Position numbers and translations under genes: made by a program
Notes under the pieces: generated by a model
Told to the model about the DNA's origin: nothing
Database searches by the model: none
The model's input: only the letters and a program-made list of their open reading frames with translations
In this document: piece after piece, positions 6,877 through 22,759 of the stretch
How positions within the stretch are numbered: position 1 is the first letter of the stretch
How the letters are laid out: each line of letters starts with the position of its first letter
Source of the DNA: a virus
Virus record (IMG/VR): IMGVR_UViG_3300023108_000112
Coordinates: 1 to 29,006 of that record
Strand: one strand, 5' to 3'
Length of the DNA stretch: 29,006 nucleotides

Positions 6877-8214
6877 ATGATGACATTTGGACTAGAGGAT
6901 GTAGATTCTCACGAACCACAGGACCCAGTGACTATTGAAGATTATTTAGATATTATATCAGCTAATAAAAAAATTCTAACAGATCCTGATCAAAAGTTAT
7001 TCTATAGCTTACACAGACAATCTATGAAGGGTATGGGTTTGACTGAACGGCAGCACGAACTGCTAAAACTCAAACTACTTGAATACTCTGAGTGGCTCGA
7101 GGCACGCTATCCTGACTTTAGAGAAGACTTGGATCATCTGCGTCACCCATATCGTATTATTGATAGAACAAGAACTATCAAAGTAATAGAGCGAGAAGTG
7201 CCAGTGTTTGGGGGACTCATCAAAGCTCAGATGATGGCTATACGCTTTCCATTTTCTAATAAAATGATAAAGCATATTGATTTTATCAAGTCTGTACAAG
7301 ATAAAAAAATGTACGACAATAAAACAAAGACGCACTTCGTCAAACTAAACGAACGCAACGCATTAGATATTATCACACACTTCAAAGATTTAGAATTTGA
7401 TATTGAGCCTCAGCTATTAGAGTATTATGATGAGGTATGTCAAATACAATCTAACAGTGATACTCATTGCCCTGGTGTATATGATTATCAGTTACGCAAT
7501 GTTCATCCACGAGTGGTTGAATACGCACATGAAAAGTTTGGCGAACCAGGACCGCACAACTTACATTTATATCGAGATGCTGCAGGTATATTAGGACTGT
7601 CTCATTTTGATTTGAAAGCTAGTAGAGAAAACGATGCGAAGCTAACACAAGTCAGCCAAAATATATTATTGAGAACTACTAATCTTTGCTTTGCTTCATC
7701 TAAAATATATGGACTAGATCAAATTTTTGAAAGCATACACGAGCTAGATAGATATCCATTACTCATATCTATGCCAGTATTATCTCGACACGAGTCTGTT
7801 TCATTCTATCAAGCTAATGGAATTGATCATGTCTTAGGTCCTGGCGAGTCAGTTCCTGATATTGTTATCCTAGCCAAGCTACATACATATTTAGAATCAT
7901 ATGTAAAAAATTCTGAGATGGCAGTTTTGTATCGCAAGGATAAGAGATCAATAGATGATTGTGAATTTAATAACTATGTCACTAGACACGAACTAAATAA
8001 TTTACCAACCAAGGACACTAAAGTTATCTTTTTACATCAGCAAAAGAGAATACCTAAGCCACTGCTTGAATCTAGTTGGAGGCCTAGAACTGTATTGATG
8101 CTACGAGCTTCTATCTCTACTAATAGAACTATTACTGTTTTTAGAGAATCAGCAGACTTAAACTTAACGTACTCAGATGAATTTTTCACAGGACATCATT
8201 ACTTTACAATATGA
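6877..8214 (+). CDS. HARP-like domain protein upstream of UvsW
   Basis: A 445-residue protein of uncertain function. Residues about 120-186 (MAIRFPFSNKMIKHIDFIK, then YDNKTKTHFVKLNER and ITHFKDLEFDIEPQLLEYYD) look like a HARP module. That is the strand-helix substrate-recognition domain found next to SF2 helicases such as SMARCAL1, in which YD..TK.W-type residues precede a hydrophobic helix. No Walker A or DExH box is visible, so it is probably not an active helicase alone. The C-terminal half (VLYRKDKRS, KVIFLHQQKR) may be a degenerate RecA-like domain. It starts with two consecutive ATGs (6877 or 6880) behind a consensus promoter, and its TGA overlaps the uvsW ATG, suggesting the two work together. 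The HARP call is by eye. Confidence 0.6.
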   Translation: MMTFGLEDVDSHEPQDPVTIEDYLDIISANKKILTDPDQKLFYSLHRQSMKGMGLTERQHELLKLKLLEYSEWLEARYPDFREDLDHLRHPYRIIDRTRTIKVIEREVPVFGGLIKAQMMAIRFPFSNKMIKHIDFIKSVQDKKMYDNKTKTHFVKLNERNALDIITHFKDLEFDIEPQLLEYYDEVCQIQSNSDTHCPGVYDYQLRNVHPRVVEYAHEKFGEPGPHNLHLYRDAAGILGLSHFDLKASRENDAKLTQVSQNILLRTTNLCFASSKIYGLDQIFESIHELDRYPLLISMPVLSRHESVSFYQANGIDHVLGPGESVPDIVILAKLHTYLESYVKNSEMAVLYRKDKRSIDDCEFNNYVTRHELNNLPTKDTKVIFLHQQKRIPKPLLESSWRPRTVLMLRASISTNRTITVFRESADLNLTYSDEFFTGHHYFTI

Positions 8215-9674
8215 AACCATGTAAACTTGTAATACAAGACGAAGTCAATATCAAGTTAGAAGGCTTGCCAGTAGATGTAAGACGCAAAATAGCAAACGCT
8301 CTAAAGTTTGAAGTTCCATATGCTAGGCATACGCCACACTACAAGCTAGGGCGTTGGGATGGCAAAGTTCCTTTCTTCAACATAGGAGGAACAGGATATG
8401 TCAATCATCTAGGCACTGTGGTAGAGATCCTATCTAAACACAACTACACTATCTCAGATATTGATGATAGACGGCAGACAATAGACTTACAGTTTCCAAC
8501 TATTACAGAGAACTATTGGGCGAACCAAGGAGTATGCTGGCCCAAAGGACATCCTGCTGAGGGTGAAAAAATACTACTACGTGACTACCAGGTAGAAGCG
8601 ATAAATAATTTTTTAGCTAACCCGCAGTCACTGCAGGAAATAGCTACGGGCGCAGGTAAAACTATTACCACAGCCACACTCTCACACATAGCAGAACAAC
8701 ATGGACGAACACTTGTCATTGTACCAAACAAATCTCTTGTGCAGCAGACTGAAGAAGATTACAGAAACTGCGGGCTGGACGTCGGCGTATACTTTGGTGA
8801 TCGAAAAGACCTTGCCAAAAAACATACCATATGCACTTGGCAGAGTCTTAACATCCTTGGAAAGAAAAGCAAAGACGCAGAAGTAGAAATAACTCTCGCA
8901 GAGTTTTTACAAGGTGTACAAACTATTATTGTAGACGAAGTGCACCAAGCAAAAGCTGATGTTCTAAAGGCACTACTAACACAAAGCCTAAAGAACGCTG
9001 CCATACGATGGGGACTAACTGGTACTATACCAAAAGAAAAATTTGAATTTGAAGCACTCCACGCTGCCATAGGTCCTGTAATTGGATCTATTAGTGCTAA
9101 GGAGCTACAGGACAAAGGAGTGCTATCACAGTGTCACGTGAACATTCAACAACTAATAGACATTGTTGAGCATCGTGACTATCAAAGCGAACTCAAATAC
9201 CTTGTTACTAACGACAAGAGAGTTGAGTATCTGGCTAGCCAGATCATCAATATTAGACAATCAGGTAACACACTCATTCTAGTGGATCGTGTATCCGCAG
9301 GTAAAAAGCTACAAGAGCTTGTGCCAGACTCAGTGTTTATCAGTGGCGAAGTAAAAGTAAAAGATCGAAAAGAGACATATGACGAAGTCCAGGATGCGAG
9401 CGACATGGTTATTATTGCTACATATGGTGTAGCAGCAGTAGGCATCAACATCCCAAGAATATTCAATCTGGTTCTTATAGAGCCAGGCAAATCATTTGTT
9501 CGTGTGATTCAGTCTATTGGTAGAGGAATCCGCAAAGCAAAGGACAAGGACTTTGTACAAATATGGGACTTCACATCTACTTGTAAATTTGCCAAGCGTC
9601 ATTTAACTGAACGTAAAAAGTTTTATAAACAAGCCCAATACCCATTTACACTACAAAAGGTTGACTGGACATGA
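8211..9674 (+). CDS. uvsW: UvsW, SF2 DNA/RNA helicase
   Basis: A 487-residue superfamily 2 helicase that in T4 unwinds branched recombination intermediates and R-loops and shifts replication to the recombination-dependent mode. Motifs in order: an N-terminal substrate-binding region with LGRWDGKVPFF (46-56), Q-motif-like LLRDYQVEAI (122-131), Walker A ATGAGKT (145-151), DEVH box (242-245), motif III GLTGT (268-272), and motif VI QSIGRGIRK near the end. Length closely matches T4 UvsW (about 500 aa). The start is in an ATGA overlap with the HARP-like gene and the stop overlaps the next ATG. Identification is secure. Confidence 0.95.
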   Translation: MKPCKLVIQDEVNIKLEGLPVDVRRKIANALKFEVPYARHTPHYKLGRWDGKVPFFNIGGTGYVNHLGTVVEILSKHNYTISDIDDRRQTIDLQFPTITENYWANQGVCWPKGHPAEGEKILLRDYQVEAINNFLANPQSLQEIATGAGKTITTATLSHIAEQHGRTLVIVPNKSLVQQTEEDYRNCGLDVGVYFGDRKDLAKKHTICTWQSLNILGKKSKDAEVEITLAEFLQGVQTIIVDEVHQAKADVLKALLTQSLKNAAIRWGLTGTIPKEKFEFEALHAAIGPVIGSISAKELQDKGVLSQCHVNIQQLIDIVEHRDYQSELKYLVTNDKRVEYLASQIINIRQSGNTLILVDRVSAGKKLQELVPDSVFISGEVKVKDRKETYDEVQDASDMVIIATYGVAAVGINIPRIFNLVLIEPGKSFVRVIQSIGRGIRKAKDKDFVQIWDFTSTCKFAKRHLTERKKFYKQAQYPFTLQKVDWT

Positions 9675-16014: not shown

Positions 16015-16992
16015 ATGAGCCTATTATCTGATACTGTATGGGCACACCTTCCATACAAGAGAAAACAAACGCCTAGTGGCTGGACCGCATTCAACTCTGT
16101 ATGTTGTCATCATCGAGGACACAAAGCAGATAACAGAGGGCGCTCTGGCATCATTATATCCAACGAAGTAATCAGCTACTCTTGCTTTAACTGTGGCTAC
16201 AAGGCATCTTGGCAGCCTGGACGCAACCTCACGGCTAAAATGAAGCAGTTACTAGAGTGGTTATCAGTTCCTTCTGATTTGATTACACGGATCTCATTTG
16301 ACATAATGCGTGTCAATCAAGACATAGAGCACATACAATATGTCTCACATCGTCCTCAGTTTGATCCTGTTAGACTTCCTGTTGGTTCTCAACTAATGAC
16401 TGAGACACAAAACGAAGCAGTTGTTCCTGTATTAGAATATATGGCTAGTAGAAACTTGCTTATGTCTGATACAAACTTCTACTGGAGTCCTGAGCTAGGT
16501 ATGAAGAATAGATTTATTATTCCCTTCTACTATGGCGGAGAATGTGTTGGCTATACAGCTCGTACCTACAAGACTGAAGGGAGCATAGCAAAGTATCTAA
16601 CATACTCGCAGCCAGGATTCGTATATGGTATGGATGCTCAACCATATGATAGGCCTTACGCTATCGTGTGTGAGGGCCCGCTAGACGCTCTTCTCATCAA
16701 TGGGTTAGCAGTATTAGGTAGTGACATAAACCCGCAGCAGGCGCTTCTTATAAACTCTCTGAATAAGAATATCATCGTAGTACCTGACAGAGATAAAGCA
16801 GGAGCAAAGATGATTGAGGCAGCATTGGAGAATGAATGGATGGTAAGTATGCCTCCTTGGCGTAATGAAATAAATGACATAAGCGATGCAGTAGCTAAAT
16901 ACGGTAGAACACTAACTCTTTACAGTATAATGAAATACAAAGAGAGGACCAGTCTAAAAATAAAATTGAGAATGAAAAGATGGATAAAATAA
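16015..16992 (+). CDS. 61: DNA primase, gp61-like
   Basis: A 325-residue DnaG-type primase that makes RNA primers for lagging-strand synthesis with the gp41 helicase. The N-terminal zinc ribbon is visible as CCHHRGH (30-36) and CFNC (57-60). The TOPRIM core holds VCEGPLDALL (218-227, with the catalytic Glu220) and VPDRDKAG (256-263, with metal-binding Asp258 and Asp260). Length is close to T4 gp61 (342 aa). The start sits at the predicted transcription start of the upstream promoter, and no Shine-Dalgarno is present. Its 3' end overlaps a 44-residue gene by 13 bases, and the helicase follows two genes later. Confidence 0.92.
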   Translation: MSLLSDTVWAHLPYKRKQTPSGWTAFNSVCCHHRGHKADNRGRSGIIISNEVISYSCFNCGYKASWQPGRNLTAKMKQLLEWLSVPSDLITRISFDIMRVNQDIEHIQYVSHRPQFDPVRLPVGSQLMTETQNEAVVPVLEYMASRNLLMSDTNFYWSPELGMKNRFIIPFYYGGECVGYTARTYKTEGSIAKYLTYSQPGFVYGMDAQPYDRPYAIVCEGPLDALLINGLAVLGSDINPQQALLINSLNKNIIVVPDRDKAGAKMIEAALENEWMVSMPPWRNEINDISDAVAKYGRTLTLYSIMKYKERTSLKIKLRMKRWIK

Positions 16993-17116: not shown

Positions 17117-18619
17117 ATGATTACTTGGGGCGTCAGCGCAAACAGTCATAACGCATCGCTAACAGCATTCGATGGAGATAAAATTGTATTCTCTAGTCAC
17201 TCAGAACGATTTAGTAGAATAAAAAACGATCCACATCTAAACAGTAAAATTATAAACTATGCTCTACAATGGGGCTACCCTTCTGAAGTAATATGGTATG
17301 AAGATCCAATTCTAAAAAGTGTCAGGCAGCTAAAAGCGGGTCAAGGTTGGAAGTTTGGCGAGAACAATGTTGAAAAGTATATGGCAAAGTATGGCATACA
17401 CTCTCCCGTGAATACAATGAGCCATCATCAGTCACATGCCGCTGCAGGATACTACACCTCAGGATTTTCAAATGCTACAGTTATAGTAATAGATTCTATT
17501 GGAGAATTTGAGACTCTAACTGTATGGGAAGGCACTGGACAGAACCTACATCAAATATTCTCACAAGGATATCCACACTCAATTGGTTTATGGTATAGTG
17601 CTATGACGCAACGACTAGGACTAAAGCCAAATGAGGAAGAATATATACTGATGGGAATGGCAGCATTTGGTGATAGCAATAAATATTTTGACGAGATACT
17701 AGATACATTTTTTGACTTGACGCCATCTGCTATAGATAATATATTTGGCAAGATACCAACTATAAAGCTAAAGCATAATCTACATCGAGGATGCTTATGG
17801 TGGAAGCCAGATATGATAGCACACGAATTTGGTGGTCCAACTTTTTGGGCATATGATGTGGCAGCAGCAACACAACGAGTCTATGAGATGTTACTTGAGA
17901 CAATCTCTAGAGAAGTAAAGAGTCGAACTACTAGCAATAACCTAGTCCTTATGGGCGGGTGTGCTTTGAATTGTAGTGCTAATACTAATATATACAGTAT
18001 GTGGGATAATGTATGGATTATGCCTGATCCAGGTGACTCCGGTTCATCAATTGGATCTGTATTAGCATATAGGGGCAGACATATAGACTGGCCCGGTCCA
18101 TACTTAGGATATGAAATAGAAGGAACACTAAATTATGACAGAATCATCTCAGAACTTGAATCCATCGGACTCTGCGGAATTGCAAGAGGACATGCAGAGA
18201 TTGGTCCTCGTGCCCTCGGCAATCGCTCTCTTATTGCTGATCCTCGGGATCCAAATTGCAAGCGTAGGGTTAACCATATTAAACAGCGGCAAGAGTTCAG
18301 ACCCTTCGCCCCCGCAATCCTCGCTGAATATGCCGATGAATATTTCGACGGCCCAACAGGACCATATATGCAATACACTCCGAAGTGTCGAGAGCCAGAA
18401 CGTTTCCCAGGCATTGTACACACTGATGGAACCTCAAGAGTCCAAACAGTTACAAGAGAGGATAACCCTAGCTTTAGAGAATTGTTAGAACTATGGTATG
18501 ACAAGACAGGCTGTCCTATGTTGCTAAACACTAGCCTAAATATAAAAGGACAGCCTATGGTAAATGACTTAGGAGACGCACGTGACTTTGAAAAGAAATA
18601 CGGAGCAAAAGTATTCTAA
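17117..18619 (+). CDS. NodU/CmcH-type carbamoyltransferase
   Basis: A 500-residue full-length carbamoyltransferase of the NodU/CmcH/TobZ family, which moves a carbamoyl group from carbamoyl phosphate (through carbamoyl-AMP) to a hydroxyl of a sugar or other small acceptor. The N-terminal ASKHA/Kae1-like domain shows GVSANSHNASL (5-15), HSERFSRIK (28-36), the metal-binding HHQSH (103-107) and IDSIGE (125-130). The C-terminal YrdC-like part has GPRALGNRSLIADPR, EFRPFAPAIL and LLNTSLNIKGQPMV. All key blocks look intact. It lies between primase and helicase and overlaps the helicase start by one base (TAATG). The acceptor may be a glycan, a nucleotide or a modified base; the sequence does not say which. 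Confidence 0.9.
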   Translation: MITWGVSANSHNASLTAFDGDKIVFSSHSERFSRIKNDPHLNSKIINYALQWGYPSEVIWYEDPILKSVRQLKAGQGWKFGENNVEKYMAKYGIHSPVNTMSHHQSHAAAGYYTSGFSNATVIVIDSIGEFETLTVWEGTGQNLHQIFSQGYPHSIGLWYSAMTQRLGLKPNEEEYILMGMAAFGDSNKYFDEILDTFFDLTPSAIDNIFGKIPTIKLKHNLHRGCLWWKPDMIAHEFGGPTFWAYDVAAATQRVYEMLLETISREVKSRTTSNNLVLMGGCALNCSANTNIYSMWDNVWIMPDPGDSGSSIGSVLAYRGRHIDWPGPYLGYEIEGTLNYDRIISELESIGLCGIARGHAEIGPRALGNRSLIADPRDPNCKRRVNHIKQRQEFRPFAPAILAEYADEYFDGPTGPYMQYTPKCREPERFPGIVHTDGTSRVQTVTREDNPSFRELLELWYDKTGCPMLLNTSLNIKGQPMVNDLGDARDFEKKYGAKVF

Positions 18620-20043
18620 TGAGCAGACAGAACACAGACTATGGATATGATATACAACGTGTATATCTTGAGATGTTTCTAACAGATGCTGAATCGTTTA
18701 TTAGGTGTCAAGGTGTATTTGAGCCAAAGACATTTGATAAGAGATTACAATCAGCAGCAAAGTTTCTAGCAGACTATGTAGCAGAGCATAACGCAATACC
18801 TACACGGGATATGGTGAATGGTGCGTGTGGTACAGAGCTACGAGATCCTGGCCCAATGAAGACAGAGCATTATGATTGGCTACTAGCAGAGTTTGAAACT
18901 TTCAGCAGACACAAAGCACTTGAGGAAGCTATTCTCAAGTCAGCAGACTTACTAGAGAAAGGCGAGTATGGCCCAGTAGAGGATCTAGTAAAGAACGCAG
19001 TGCAGATAGGATTACAAAAAGATTTAGGAACTAACTACTGGGCAGATCCTAGAGGCAGACTAGAGTGGATCAAAAGTAGGAACGGACAAGTAAGCACAGG
19101 CTGGACAACACTGGATCAGAAACTATTTGGTGGATTCAACAGAGGAGAACTGAATATATTTGCTGGAGGCTCTGGCGCAGGTAAAAGTTTATTCCTGGCT
19201 AACTTAGGAGTCAATTGGGCAAAGGAAGGATTGAATGTAGTTTATCTAACATTTGAGCTTTCAGAACAGATTGTTAGTATGAGACTTGACTCTATGGTTA
19301 CAGAGATACCTTCTCGAGAAATATTTAAGAGTATAGATGATGTAGAGATGAAGGTAAAGATTATAGGAAAAAAGTCTGGCGCATTCCAAGTAAAGTATAT
19401 GCCATCAGGTAAAACAGCAAACGATATTAGAGCATACATAAAAGAATTAGAAATCAAAACAGATAGAAAAATAGATGTATTGCTTGTAGATTATTTAGAT
19501 TTGATGATGCCTATTGGCAAACGCATCTCGGCTGAGAACTTATTTGTAAAAGACAAATATGTATCTGAAGAGTTGCGTAATTTAGCTATGGAAACAAACA
19601 CACTATTTGTAACAGCATCTCAGTTGAATAGAGCCTCTGTAGAAGAGATAGAATTCGATCATAGTCATATCTCAGGAGGATTATCTAAAATACAAACAGC
19701 AGATAATGTAATAGGTATCTTTACTTCTAGAGCTATGCGGGAACGAGGACGATATCAAATCCAGCTAATGAAAACTAGAAACTCCTCAGGAGTAAATGCT
19801 AAAATAGATTTAGATTTTAATATTGATACACTACGCATAACAGACTCAGAGGATGAGGAAGGTGTAACTGTTACATCTAACACAAGTGCTCAGTCTATAT
19901 TGAGCAAGGTAAAGAGAAACGGATCAGCACCTACAAGTCCAGATGAAGTACCCGACGAACCTAAAATGAAAATCACAGCTAAAACAGATAGCACTAAACT
20001 TCGAGATTTTCTAAACAACCTTAAAACGTCTGAGGAAGACTAG
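18619..20043 (+). CDS. 41: Replicative DNA helicase, gp41/DnaB-like
   Basis: A 474-residue hexameric helicase that unwinds the fork ahead of the polymerase and anchors the primase. It has an N-terminal helical domain (about 1-150), then the RecA-like core: Walker A GGSGAGKS (183-190), catalytic Glu in LTFELSE (210-216), Walker B LLVDYLDLM (288-296), and a QLNRAS segment with an SHISGGLSKIQTADNVI block (sensor and arginine-finger region). The C-terminal 60 residues are a low-complexity, charged tail. T4 gp41 is 475 aa, an almost exact match in length. The start overlaps the carbamoyltransferase stop as TAATG. Confidence 0.95.
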   Translation: MSRQNTDYGYDIQRVYLEMFLTDAESFIRCQGVFEPKTFDKRLQSAAKFLADYVAEHNAIPTRDMVNGACGTELRDPGPMKTEHYDWLLAEFETFSRHKALEEAILKSADLLEKGEYGPVEDLVKNAVQIGLQKDLGTNYWADPRGRLEWIKSRNGQVSTGWTTLDQKLFGGFNRGELNIFAGGSGAGKSLFLANLGVNWAKEGLNVVYLTFELSEQIVSMRLDSMVTEIPSREIFKSIDDVEMKVKIIGKKSGAFQVKYMPSGKTANDIRAYIKELEIKTDRKIDVLLVDYLDLMMPIGKRISAENLFVKDKYVSEELRNLAMETNTLFVTASQLNRASVEEIEFDHSHISGGLSKIQTADNVIGIFTSRAMRERGRYQIQLMKTRNSSGVNAKIDLDFNIDTLRITDSEDEEGVTVTSNTSAQSILSKVKRNGSAPTSPDEVPDEPKMKITAKTDSTKLRDFLNNLKTSEED

Positions 20044-20072: not shown

Positions 20073-20936
20073 ATGTCATGTGGATGCGGGCGCTCGCCAG
20101 ACTTTTGTAGAGGATGGCACGCTCTTACAGAAGAAGAATGGCAAGAAGAACTTGCTAAGTTTCGTATTGAGGAACAACAGGAAGCAAAATCAAACACAAA
20201 GTATCACGAAGTCACTGTACTAGAAGTACATCATACAACACCATCACTATTTAAGATTAGAACAACAAAGCCAGAAGGTTACGCATTCAAGCCAGGTGAG
20301 TTTACAATGATTGGGCTACCTGACAGTATAAAGCGAGCTTATTCTTTTACATCAGCACCTAGTGATGACTACCTAGAGTTTTATTCTATCAAAGCACCTA
20401 ACGGAGAACTTACATCATTATTGAAGTATGTTTTACCTGGCGACACAATGCATGTTGGTAAAAAAGCCAAAGGCACTTTGCTTGCAGAAAACTTTACACC
20501 TAAAGAATCTGAACGAGTATGGCTACTAGCTACAGGAACAGGTATTGCTCCATTTATGTCTATACTTAGAAGTAGGCAACTTAAAACTATGTTTGAAAGA
20601 AAAACATATGTAATGTGGAGTGTTCGTAAAAAAGAAGACTTACTAGCATATGACGAGGAGCTAACTAGAAATTCGTTTATTCATTATATGCCAATCGTTA
20701 CACAAGATGCTGAACACTTTGGCTGGACTAAGCGCATTCAAGAATATTTGTTAGATCCTGCTACACACGGACTGACTATGATTCCAGAACTAGATCCTAT
20801 AAAGGACAGAGTTATGTTATGCGGCTCTATGGAGTTCAACGAAGACTTGCGTGAGATACTAGAAGAGCGTGGGTTTGTAGAAGGAAGTAATCAACAACAA
20901 GGAACCTACGTTCTAGAGAAAGCATTCGTAGGATAA
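20073..20936 (+). CDS. Ferredoxin-NADP reductase (Fpr type) with N-terminal Cys/His module
   Basis: A 287-residue flavoprotein of the ferredoxin/flavodoxin-NADP(H) reductase family, which shuttles electrons between NADPH and ferredoxin or flavodoxin. FAD binding is marked by RAYSFTSAP (88-96), NADP binding by GTGIAPFMS (155-163) and CGSMEFN (250-256). The protein ends YVLEKAFVG, typical of bacterial Fpr. Unusually, about 42 residues precede the domain. They begin with CGCGRSPDFCRGWH (3-16), a motif I recall as a stand-alone small protein in marine phages and whose spacing is reminiscent of a CDGSH-type [2Fe-2S] site. ATG 20073 has AAGGAG upstream. The host pathway it feeds is unknown. Confidence 0.88.
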   Translation: MSCGCGRSPDFCRGWHALTEEEWQEELAKFRIEEQQEAKSNTKYHEVTVLEVHHTTPSLFKIRTTKPEGYAFKPGEFTMIGLPDSIKRAYSFTSAPSDDYLEFYSIKAPNGELTSLLKYVLPGDTMHVGKKAKGTLLAENFTPKESERVWLLATGTGIAPFMSILRSRQLKTMFERKTYVMWSVRKKEDLLAYDEELTRNSFIHYMPIVTQDAEHFGWTKRIQEYLLDPATHGLTMIPELDPIKDRVMLCGSMEFNEDLREILEERGFVEGSNQQQGTYVLEKAFVG

Positions 20937-20939
20937 ATA
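20932..20939 (+). promoter_or_regulatory. Late-promoter-like box for the membrane-complex operon
   Basis: GATAAATA matches the marine form of the T4 late box (NATAAATA). It overlaps the reductase stop codon and lies 16 bases before ATG 20956, with TAGGA in between as a ribosome site. This would give the three membrane genes their own late transcript. One mismatch to the strict T4 box and overlap with coding sequence lower the certainty. Confidence 0.5.
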
Positions 20940-20955
20940 ATTGATAGGATTTTTT

Positions 20956-21420
20956 ATGGAAACAAGATTGAAATGGTGGGCAATGTTTTGCTCGTCGATA
21001 GTAATGTTATTTTTATGTTGGCAGTTTGGATTTCTTACAACACTTTATAATACAGATGTAACATATATTAGTTGGTTGATTATTGGACTATACATCGTAT
21101 TGAGTTTGAGAGCTGGTTGGAAGATCCATATGTTCGACATTACAAACGATAAGCAATCTAGCTCACGCCCAGAATGGTATATGAGTGAAATGCTGCTAAG
21201 CCTAGGAATGGTAGGAACTGTTATAGGCTTTATCTATATGCTCAGCACAATGTTCACAGACATTAATGTTCAAGACATTAATAGCGTTCAATATGCATTG
21301 GGACAAATGGCAACTGGTATGGGGACGGCATTATGGACAACACTAACGGGCCTTATCTGTAGCATCTTGCTAAAGTTGCAATTAGTGTATATGGACGAGT
21401 TTGTGAAATATGAAAAATAA
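20956..21420 (+). CDS. MotA/TolQ/ExbB-like inner-membrane protein
   Basis: A 154-residue protein with four likely membrane segments (about 7-29, 37-52, 80-99, 117-140). The last two carry the signature of the MotA/TolQ/ExbB proton-channel family: LGMVGTVIGFIYML (83-96) matches 'lGLLGTVxGm', and ATGMGTALWTTLTGLICSIL (119-138) matches the 'aL.tTa.GL..aip' channel helix. The large cytoplasmic loop of real MotA is missing, so it is a compact version. I start at ATG 20956, behind TAGGA, rather than a TTG 15 bases upstream. It overlaps by 11 bases a gene with a MotB/ExbD-type anchor, the expected partner. An ion-driven complex is inferred, not shown. Confidence 0.7.
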   Translation: METRLKWWAMFCSSIVMLFLCWQFGFLTTLYNTDVTYISWLIIGLYIVLSLRAGWKIHMFDITNDKQSSSRPEWYMSEMLLSLGMVGTVIGFIYMLSTMFTDINVQDINSVQYALGQMATGMGTALWTTLTGLICSILLKLQLVYMDEFVKYEK

Positions 21421-22186
21421 GTATATAAGCACTCTCGCCCTTACGGATTTATTATTCAATCTAATTTTAGGATTTGTATTCCTTTTCCTTATTAGCTTTT
21501 TATTGATTAACAAACCAGAGAAGACTGCTGACGTAGAAAAGAAAGCAGAGATGATAGTCATAATGCATTGGGAAGACATGCATGAAGCTGACATTGATCT
21601 CTGGGTACAAACGCCTCATGGAACGGTGAACTTTGTTCAACCAACTAGAGGCAATGTGTTCTTAGACAAAGATGATTTAGGAACACGAAATGATTGGTAT
21701 TGGAAACCAAACGGTGAATTGGAAGTTGTTCGTATCAACCGAGAAGTTGTTACCTTTAGAGCATTAGAAGTAGGAGACTACACAATCAATGCTCATTATT
21801 ATTCTTCAGCTCCAGCAGTATTTCCAAAGCAGTTAGTAGAAGAAGGTTGGCTCAAAGAGAATCCATCTATGCGAGGTCCTGCCAATGTTACTGTTGAGGT
21901 TATAAGGTTGAATCCTTTCTATATTGTGCATACAAGCTCGCATATTTTAGAAGAAAAAGGAGCCCAAAAAACTTTTATCAATTTTGAACTTGATGATCTA
22001 GGAGTAGTTAGAAACATTAACTATCTACCAAAGAATTTGATTCGGGGTAAAGTACCTGGACAAGAATATCATCTATCAGATGTACCTGATGAAGTTGATG
22101 AAGGATTACAACGAGCATTGAGGCAACAGACAGCACCGGGCCCAAGCCCAACAACACCAAGTCCATCACCACCATCATCAAACTGA
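21410..22186 (+). CDS. MotB/ExbD-like anchor with a DUF2135/YfaP-like periplasmic domain
   Basis: A 258-residue protein with one N-terminal membrane helix, TDLLFNLILGFVFLFLISFL (12-31). An Asp at residue 13 sits at the membrane entry, where MotB, TolR and ExbD place their essential proton-binding Asp. The rest would be periplasmic. Residues about 58-165 (HEADIDLWVQTPHG, NVFLDKDDLGTRND, RALEVGDYTINAHYY, PANVTVEVI) resemble the Asp-rich beta-sandwich of DUF2135/YfaP proteins ('aDlDLhV.dPdG...GtY.v.v.yy'). The C-terminus is a Pro/Ser/Thr-rich linker. The usual OmpA-type peptidoglycan-binding domain is absent. It overlaps the MotA/ExbB-like gene by 11 bases and precedes a third membrane gene by 12. 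Confidence 0.65.
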   Translation: MKNKYISTLALTDLLFNLILGFVFLFLISFLLINKPEKTADVEKKAEMIVIMHWEDMHEADIDLWVQTPHGTVNFVQPTRGNVFLDKDDLGTRNDWYWKPNGELEVVRINREVVTFRALEVGDYTINAHYYSSAPAVFPKQLVEEGWLKENPSMRGPANVTVEVIRLNPFYIVHTSSHILEEKGAQKTFINFELDDLGVVRNINYLPKNLIRGKVPGQEYHLSDVPDEVDEGLQRALRQQTAPGPSPTTPSPSPPSSN

Positions 22187-22198
22187 CCGGAGAGATAC

Positions 22199-22759
22199 AT
22201 GACACTTTTAATGATATTTGGCTTCTTAGCCGCAGCTTTGTTTGTATATGCTATTATCCAAAGTAGAGCAACACTACATCAATATTATATTATTCCTACA
22301 GCACTAGCTACAGTAATTGGTATTGTATTCTTTTATAATACTGTATTAGGATATCCAACTACTGCACTGAATAGTAAAGAGTTTGAATATCTCTCATATC
22401 ATACTGATGGTGAAACTATTTGGATTTGGGTAAAGCACGATGACGAGGATGAACCACGCTCATATGCTAAACCCTATACAGAGCAAACTCAAGCTGAACT
22501 TGAAGCAGGAGACGCTTCTAGAGAGCAAGGAAAAACTGTTAGAGGTGAGTTTATGGAAGAAGAGGCTCTTGAGGAGAACGATGGATCATTTGTTTTAGGT
22601 TCTTCTAAGTCTGCTGGCGGAGCATTGGAACTATATGATTTAGATCCTGCTAAGTATTTGCCGCAAAAAAATCCACAAGCAAATAATCCTCCAGCAGTAG
22701 TTATGGAAGCTATGAGACAAGGTGTTACACCAACTACAACATCTATGGGCGGACCTTAG
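22199..22759 (+). CDS. Membrane protein, third gene of the late membrane operon
   Basis: A 186-residue protein with two N-terminal membrane helices (about 1-20 and 28-48). A short WIWVKHDDEDEPRSYAKPY strand-like stretch, a long acidic region (QAELEAGDASREQGKTVRG, MEEEALEEND), and a Pro/Thr-rich tail follow. GGAGAG precedes ATG 22199. No family is recognised. Tight linkage to the ExbB-like and ExbD-like genes makes a third subunit or regulator the natural guess. The tail could lie in the cytoplasm or the periplasm, depending on topology. Its end overlaps the convergent gene by 17 bases. Confidence 0.7.
   Translation: MTLLMIFGFLAAALFVYAIIQSRATLHQYYIIPTALATVIGIVFFYNTVLGYPTTALNSKEFEYLSYHTDGETIWIWVKHDDEDEPRSYAKPYTEQTQAELEAGDASREQGKTVRGEFMEEEALEENDGSFVLGSSKSAGGALELYDLDPAKYLPQKNPQANNPPAVVMEAMRQGVTPTTTSMGGP

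Follow-up and report, generated by a model that had tools for sequence, protein, structure and literature searches.

Here we describe a three-gene, motor-like operon (genes A, B and C, co-directional at positions 20956-22759) in the IMG/VR virus record IMGVR_UViG_3300023108_000112; the whole record of 29,006 bases was analysed and is called the window below. We consider it probable, at roughly 60%, that A and B form an ion-driven envelope energy converter of the ExbBD/TolQR/MotAB type, which works with C, is common to bacteria and phages, and acts in the envelope of the infected cell. The parts of the trio come from known superfamilies or folds, and its composition, its spread among phages and its bacterial counterpart are not in open-licence print: neither a phage-borne MotA/ExbB operon nor a pairing of TerD with a motor was found in the open-licence PMC literature. 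This agrees with an earlier note on this DNA, made from the letters alone, which knew of no described phage system of such make-up; the note missed the chromosomal trio of bacteria and the wide spread in phages.

Channel, anchor and proposed third subunit

Gene A (20956-21420, plus strand, 154 amino acids) encodes a channel subunit of the MotA/TolQ/ExbB family with a short cytoplasmic loop. It starts at an ATG at 20956 with AGGA six bases upstream, a TTG at 20941 being an alternative start. The window protein has four hydropathy peaks, the motif GMVGTVIGF at residues 84-92 and a Thr/Gly-rich last helix. The earlier note had called it a MotA/ExbB-like channel, and the Pfam search bore this out: A matched PF01618 (MotA_ExbB) at an expectation value (E) of 2.5e-7, its 30.9 bits exceeding the curated cut-off of 22.9, and 22 of 25 aligned A members, the window's included, matched the same family at E 0.1 or better. 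Among solved structures, the A profile matched MotA 8gqy (E 8e-6) and the channels 8vvi and 8vvn (about 3e-5), and more weakly TolQ 8odt (0.005) and ZorA 8qyh (0.013). No significant PHROGs family was found for A, the lone row standing at E 0.97. In PADLOC, A resembled ZorA (E 1.4e-6) and B weakly resembled ZorB (E 0.025), with the window trio far under the NCBIfam ZorA cut-offs (best scores of 18.1 bits against 500 and 15.6 against 100).

The residues expected of such a channel are nearly invariant. In an alignment of 91 A rows (7 of 98 references, mostly near-copies or fragments, having been dropped), G87 was found in 91/91, Thr at position 88 in 88/91 and Thr at position 129 in 90/91; the wider viral set gave 133/134, 130/134 and 132/134, respectively. 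We take T88 and T129 to be the pore threonines of ExbB/TolQ. Phage and bacterial A proteins differ in their cytoplasmic parts: the loop between transmembrane helices 2 and 3 has a median length of 17 amino acids in phages (13-31, n=30) vs 61 in bacteria (13-93, n=61), and the C-terminal tail a median of 8 vs 30, so that a long tail of the ZorA type is absent from phage A. Phage A is reduced to the membrane part, most of the cytoplasmic domain being lost, and for this reason the phage version may approach the smallest functional unit of this motor class.

Gene B (21410-22186, plus strand, 258 amino acids) overlaps A by 11 bases (21410-21420), as the earlier note had it, and encodes an anchor with a single helix (residues 3-33 in the predicted model), a periplasmic beta domain and a Pro-rich tail. 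One hydropathy peak was counted in 93/93 B rows, which remained after removal of a fragment (L079), a doubtful match (L116) and four near-copies from 99 references. Asp13 (codon at 21446-21448, plus strand), the membrane-entry acid expected to carry the ion, is conserved in an alignment that was not gathered with this residue: Asp was found in 30/30 phage and 57/63 bacterial rows, all search-unbiased, one of them (L049) beginning at a start codon ahead of the annotated start. The one-helix, ExbD/MotB-like anchor with a membrane-entry acid that the earlier note proposed is thus upheld in phages. In the larger viral set, Asp was found in 133/133 readable B rows, though the search patterns included Asp13. 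The two wider viral patterns contained Asp13 together with D61/D63, the pattern of a 32-locus scan D88/D89 and that of the bacterial scan D61/D63; conservation of these residues in the fetched loci proves little, because the patterns contained them.

The periplasmic part of B was examined by structure prediction. The AlphaFold model consists of a long helix and a beta domain, with a mean predicted local distance difference test score (pLDDT) of 82.5, mostly 84-98 in the beta domain and lower (67-83) in an insertion at residues 131-160. The top VIA-align rows for this model were TerD 3ibz (Z 9.8, 3.5 A over 130 residues), 2qng (9.2) and the TerD homologue 2qz7 (9.0), followed by 9a6r (8.6), presumably the TerD relative SCP2, and 7jtk (8.3); the remainder reached at most 5.4, Ca2+-bound 2lge being the first of them. 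ExbD, TolR and OmpA entries lay outside the 50 structural-match rows shown, an absence that excludes nothing. A phmmer search with genomic TerD matched 2kxt/2kxv, 3ibz, 2qng and 2qz7, which places these structures in one family. When the B domain (85 rows) was aligned by hhalign with 36 TerD sequences (those of at least 120 residues among 61 domains, duplicates removed), the Trp, the DxD(L) and the second acidic motif fell in register. Residues 46-213 of B are therefore given here as a predicted TerD-like fold; membership of the TerD family is not claimed, because the profile-profile link to TerD is weak. DUF2135/YfaP (PF09906), the likeness named in the earlier note, fell away: it was matched at E 0.053 by one of 25 members, which was not the window's, with 14 bits vs a cut-off of 22.

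W54, D61, D63, D88, D89 and E112 of B are invariant in 135/135 distinct viral B proteins, D61, D63, D88 and D89 having been in the search patterns. The TerD-fold family has Ca2+-binding members. The six residues suggest a metal site, and by analogy with TerD and 2lge the metal may be Ca2+.

Gene C (22199-22759, plus strand, 186 amino acids) encodes a protein with two helices at its N terminus and a small soluble domain at about 58-118. In the predicted model (pLDDT 76), helices at 2-21 and 28-50 precede a small beta domain and a further helix. Two hydropathy peaks were counted in 76/88 C rows, 6 of 94 references, mostly near-copies or fragments, having been dropped. C also has a positively charged short loop, and by the positive-inside rule the soluble domain is probably periplasmic. 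Structure comparison of the C model gave no convincing known fold, small OB-like barrels at Z 6.5 lying in the range expected of unrelated proteins, and neither B nor C gave anything beyond noise in Pfam, PHROGs and NCBIfam.

Occurrence in phages, viral contigs and bacteria

Searches by tblastn found B in 24 phage records, and in 26 when a Rhizobium phage B served as query (GenBank and RefSeq copies counted apart). All of these are Rhizobium or Sinorhizobium phages from unrelated groups, including the Pootjesviridae (RHph_N34, P10VF), RHph_I1_18 (171 kb), RHph_N3_13 (68 kb), and 16-3, NV1.1.1, AP-16-3 and TM3_3_14B (59-64 kb). In the eight phage loci opened, A lay upstream and C downstream of B, and none of the genes bore a functional name. 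An additional gene stands between A and B in NV1.1.1 (L011:5183-5920) and TM3_3_14B (L046:5120-5878), in the manner of an inserted homing element; the annotation in TM3_3_14B is a Seg-like homing endonuclease, and the NV1.1.1 gene, judged by eye, is GIY-YIG-like.

A first set of 36 phage or viral loci held A-B-C in order in 34. Scans of viral contigs yielded 32 loci and, later, the best 80 of 193 plus 75 relatives. Among 179 viral loci there were 135 with distinct B, in which the three genes followed one another in order on one strand in 131; three of the remaining four were cut by the contig end, and one (L043) was without C. The recurrence of the trio in other phages, and the two-helix protein as its third partner, both raised in the earlier note, are thus borne out. 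With open reading frames taken from the first start codon, A and B overlap or abut in 106 of the 131 loci, by a median of 11 bases. The surroundings vary. The trio lies between topoisomerase/gyrase and late-sigma genes in Pootjesviridae, and in a T4-like contig (L024) it lies between UvsY-like and UvsW-like genes, near major capsid and tail tube genes.

A scan of species genomes revealed 67 bacterial loci. Named carriers are Bradyrhizobium, Devosia, Azospirillum, Skermanella, Plasticicumulans and Acidiferrobacter, joined by many gammaproteobacterial and alphaproteobacterial metagenome-assembled genomes (MAGs) and by single MAGs of Gemmatimonadota and Rokubacteria; two carriers (G004 and G003) are assemblies of about 0.9 and 1.1 Mb, possibly incomplete. 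Together with two plasmid loci these make 69, with A present in 67, C in 66 and all three genes in order in 64; L116 is a doubtful B match without A or C. When B alone was counted, centre genomes included, it was present in 43 of 289 genomes sampled from the class to which Azospirillum belongs (35 at E below 1e-40) and in 32 of 274 sampled from that of a gammaproteobacterial MAG. Two B copies stand at separate places in the genomes G010 (L101, Azospirillum), where they are about 24 kb apart on the same contig, and G007 (L087, Skermanella), and two C genes stand in tandem at L054 and L065.

Twenty-six bacterial loci were mapped, and 18 neighbour proteins of 11 of them were scanned. These included fumarase, aconitase, IspA, BolA, queuosine synthesis, DUF520, hemerythrin, LigD, TetR, formyltransferase, a histidine kinase, 3-hydroxyacyl-CoA dehydrogenase, DUF302, an FHA/VWA protein (L054) and four proteins without a Pfam hit; no common partner gene and no flagellar gene was seen among them. 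The idea of a defence island or a common partner in bacteria was set aside, the 18 scanned proteins (to which PADLOC was not applied) being mostly housekeeping and none of them shared. Because the scanned neighbours are mostly housekeeping and differ by lineage, the bacterial trio seems to stand alone.

On the B tree, built by a quick method and showing long branches, four changes between the labels phage and bacterium were counted, of which well-supported branches force at least three; Shinella L098 and Ensifer L099 were labelled bacterial, and the count would fall were they labelled phage. These two loci group with 16-3-like phages and share an upstream protease with them, and for this reason they look like prophages. 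Judging from the tree, the trio appears to have been exchanged between phages and bacteria more than once; no direction is claimed.

Companion genes and surroundings

A gene for an SbmA/BacA-type transporter (PF05992) was found in the fetched stretch of 28 of the 135 viral loci, before or behind the trio; one example scanned matched PF05992 at E 1.3e-132. At 60% identity, 27 aligned viral SbmA proteins form three clusters. The genes of a cluster of 14 lie 1 to 351 bases behind C; in the second, of 11, nine overlap or abut the start of A and two sit 1.2-1.3 kb behind the trio; the two of the third are located 3.2 kb behind. SbmA stands before A at L284, L288, L292 and L294-L299, and behind C at L214, L216, L225, L030-L032 and others; in PHROGs, the proteins of L030 and L032 gave a weak match to the unknown family phrog_11436. 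Among 26 of the larger trio-bearing viral contigs (67-343 kb), PF05992 was found anywhere in 15, comprising eight known beforehand and seven of the other 18. In the reverse direction, with the best 80 of 276 viral SbmA relatives kept, B was nearby in 13 of 79 viral SbmA loci and in 10 of the 32 longer than 12 kb. Seven of 15 SbmA contigs held B, five of them known beforehand (G578, G581, G586, G602 and G610) and two among the ten others (G599 and G606). The linkage of SbmA with the trio is real in a part of the viruses and is optional.

Further recurrent neighbours of viral trios are the genes for ClpP, ClpS, Hsp20 and a protein of iron-sulphur assembly, and neck and tail genes of T4 type. The 16-3-like phages and prophage-like loci have, a short way upstream of A, a gene for a trypsin-like protease (PF13365 in 16-3) whose start resembles a signal peptide; the protease loci are L010:4106-5005, L011:3928-4710, L046:3829-4698, L044, L049, L098:6531-7259 and L099:6900-7532.

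In the window itself, the replication genes are of T4 type: a UvsX-like recombinase (300-1367), a UvsW-type helicase (8211-9674), a primase-like gene (16015-16992) and a DnaB-like helicase (18619-20043). A carbamoyltransferase (PHROG 1601, Nol-like) is encoded at 17117-18619, and an FAD/NAD-binding oxidoreductase at 20073-20936 adjoins the trio on its upstream side. The GATAAATA box that the earlier note placed before the set, a claimed late promoter, exists upstream of A, its ATAAATA core lying at 20933-20939 on the plus strand, yet this copy includes the stop codon of the preceding gene and the box is no commoner than chance: ATAAATA was found 10 times in the window with 14.1 expected, and TATAAATA four times with 4.2 expected. 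A late promoter ahead of the trio was therefore dropped.

Proposed mechanism, rival explanations and known systems

In the known motor class of ExbBD/TolQR/MotAB (compare PMC9389320), ions pass the Asp of the B subunit within a ring of A subunits around the B helices, and B moves relative to A. In the trio, a ring of A subunits (probably five) would enclose the helices of B (probably two), and protons or another ion would pass by way of Asp13 of B and the threonines of A. The motion would be handed to the periplasmic arm of B, whose TerD-like, probably Ca2+-binding domain would be turned or pulled, with C as a near-obligate third subunit beside or above the motor. The bacterial system would be an envelope machine, and infected cells would make the phage motor to maintain or remodel their own envelope or the uptake across it; the motor of some large environmental phages would probably work together with a phage SbmA/BacA-type transporter. 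Ion flow, stoichiometry, Ca2+ and the benefit to the phage are what we infer.

Several observations weigh against reading the trio as such a converter with a TerD-like arm. For A, exactly four hydropathy peaks were counted in just 29 of 91 rows (a crude count, with a range of 1-7), and the four-helix topology, clear for the window protein, is not established across all rows. For B, no ExbD or MotB model of Pfam was matched by the window protein at E up to 1, and the 13 Pfam families listed for 25 aligned members did not include ExbD, MotB or TerD. Six bacterial B proteins (Bradyrhizobium L050-L052, L054, L058 and L065) have Val or Ala in place of Asp13, with an Asp four residues earlier in FDP, and the machine may work without Asp13 in some lineages. 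As regards the fold of B, the Z of 9.8 exceeds only moderately the values of 7 to 8 that are typical, according to the tool, where a model has no clear match. Foldseek found nothing for B at E 0.001 in the PDB, the best entry being 2qng at 2.8e-3 (probability 1.0, modest TM-scores of 0.35 and 0.49), and nothing at E 0.001 in a viral structure library, where the best match (1.4e-3) was unnamed. The hhalign score of B against TerD was 19.3 (p 0.022 local, 0.0009 global) and was exceeded by the highest-scoring of 60 shuffled decoys, at 19.9; B matched neither PF02342 (TerD) at E up to 1 nor a profile made from four TerD sequences, and a sequence search of solved structures with B gave no significant match. 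Finally, SbmA is not part of the core, because it was found near no bacterial trio examined, is not in the window and was present in none of seven rhizobial phage isolates.

Other roles for the trio were weighed against maintenance or re-tuning of the envelope or of uptake, which we place first among the possible benefits to the phage. Superinfection exclusion, in which the phage motor would alter the envelope of the infected cell and block injection by other phages, comes next and is on the unlikely side. It would fit the moron-like placing of the trio at differing sites in unrelated phages (L024, Pootjesviridae, 16-3-like and prophage-like loci), and the ter operon, whose TerD has a fold like that of B, is implicated in phage inhibition and colicin resistance in an excerpt of PMC8123226. 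However, the TerD link is by fold only, and the bacterial neighbours scanned are mostly housekeeping-like and not defence genes, PADLOC not having been applied to them. A role in nutrient scavenging, in which peptide import for phage synthesis would have its outer-membrane step energised by the trio and its inner-membrane step by SbmA/BacA, is less likely again. The closeness of SbmA/BacA genes from three clusters to the trio, their co-occurrence with it in large contigs and the presence of ClpP, ClpS and Hsp20 among the recurrent neighbours point that way, but SbmA is nearby in just 28 of 135 trio loci and in none of the seven rhizobial isolates, eight of the ten SbmA contigs not known beforehand to hold B (fragments) show none, and no TonB-like arm or outer-membrane receptor was identified, no dedicated search having been made.

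Interference with the host is also conceivable: the phage proteins, as decoys or dominant inhibitors, would mix into and poison the host trio or a Zorya-like motor. Phage A, lacking most of the cytoplasmic loop and tail, is like a subunit that disconnects output, and PADLOC noted the likeness to ZorA and, weakly, ZorB. Yet a decoy need not keep the threonines of A, Asp13, the invariant periplasmic acids and a C gene, and the ZorA likeness is that of the channel family at large, so that we regard this explanation as improbable, and rank it below exclusion. The earlier note also offered lysis, by a pore-forming machine made late in infection, and here we find no support. A phage operon of membrane proteins and the claimed GATAAATA box would speak for it, but the box does not exceed chance, bacteria carry chromosomal relatives, and among the annotated neighbours (many of them hypothetical) in the isolate phages opened a lysozyme and an endopeptidase occur just in TM3_3_14B, more than 3 kb away. 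Lysis is the least likely of the roles considered, and very improbable.

To our knowledge, the motors known in this class (Mot, Ton, Tol, gliding motors and Zorya) are all bacterial. With a conserved motor-like operon present in well over 100 viral contigs, phages would be supplying envelope energy converters of their own. A broader proposal, which we offer tentatively and hold to be doubtful in its full extent, is that the trio represents a new class of ion-driven motor in the envelope, with a rotor arm that is TerD-like and binds Ca2+ and with a third subunit of its own, chromosomal in many Alpha- and Gammaproteobacteria and repeatedly shared with phages, from rhizobial 16-3-like ones to T4-like and jumbo-size environmental viruses, and that a minimal phage version, together with SbmA/BacA, controls traffic across the envelope of the infected cell. 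The phage copies can serve in finding the function of the bacterial ones and vice versa, and isolated phages with known hosts (16-3, P10VF and RHph_N34) make the trio directly testable.

Compared with TolQR/ExbBD, the trio has in common a PF01618 channel, a one-helix subunit with a membrane-entry Asp, the GxxGT motif, a Thr in the fourth transmembrane helix and adjacent, overlapping genes. It differs in an additional hairpin at the N terminus of A, in the near absence of a cytoplasmic domain from phage A, in the predicted TerD-like domain that B has in place of the ExbD/TolR domain, and in C, for which no family was matched in the searches made and which takes the operon place of TonB/TolA. 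With MotAB/PomAB it shares a four-helix A, whose best profile match among solved structures is MotA 8gqy, and a one-helix B with an Asp, whereas phage A leaves no space for a cytoplasmic domain that could generate torque, and the domain of B is modelled as TerD-like. The channel core is also similar to that of Zorya ZorAB, as the PADLOC match indicates; unlike ZorAB, A is without a long cytoplasmic tail and stays far under the NCBIfam ZorA cut-offs, and the periplasmic domain of B is modelled differently. Generic ion transporters to which many domains of unknown function are appended are described in an excerpt of PMC12505986, a TerD-like one not being among those found in that excerpt. The SbmA/BacA transporters (PF05992), encoded near the trio in a fifth of viral loci, are a separate and optional partner. 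TerD, of a family linked to tellurite resistance and stress, is a soluble protein. Its family resembles B in the predicted fold of residues 46-213 and in the Trp, the DxD(L) and the second acidic motif, which come in the same order, whereas B is membrane-anchored, periplasmic and not recognised by PF02342.

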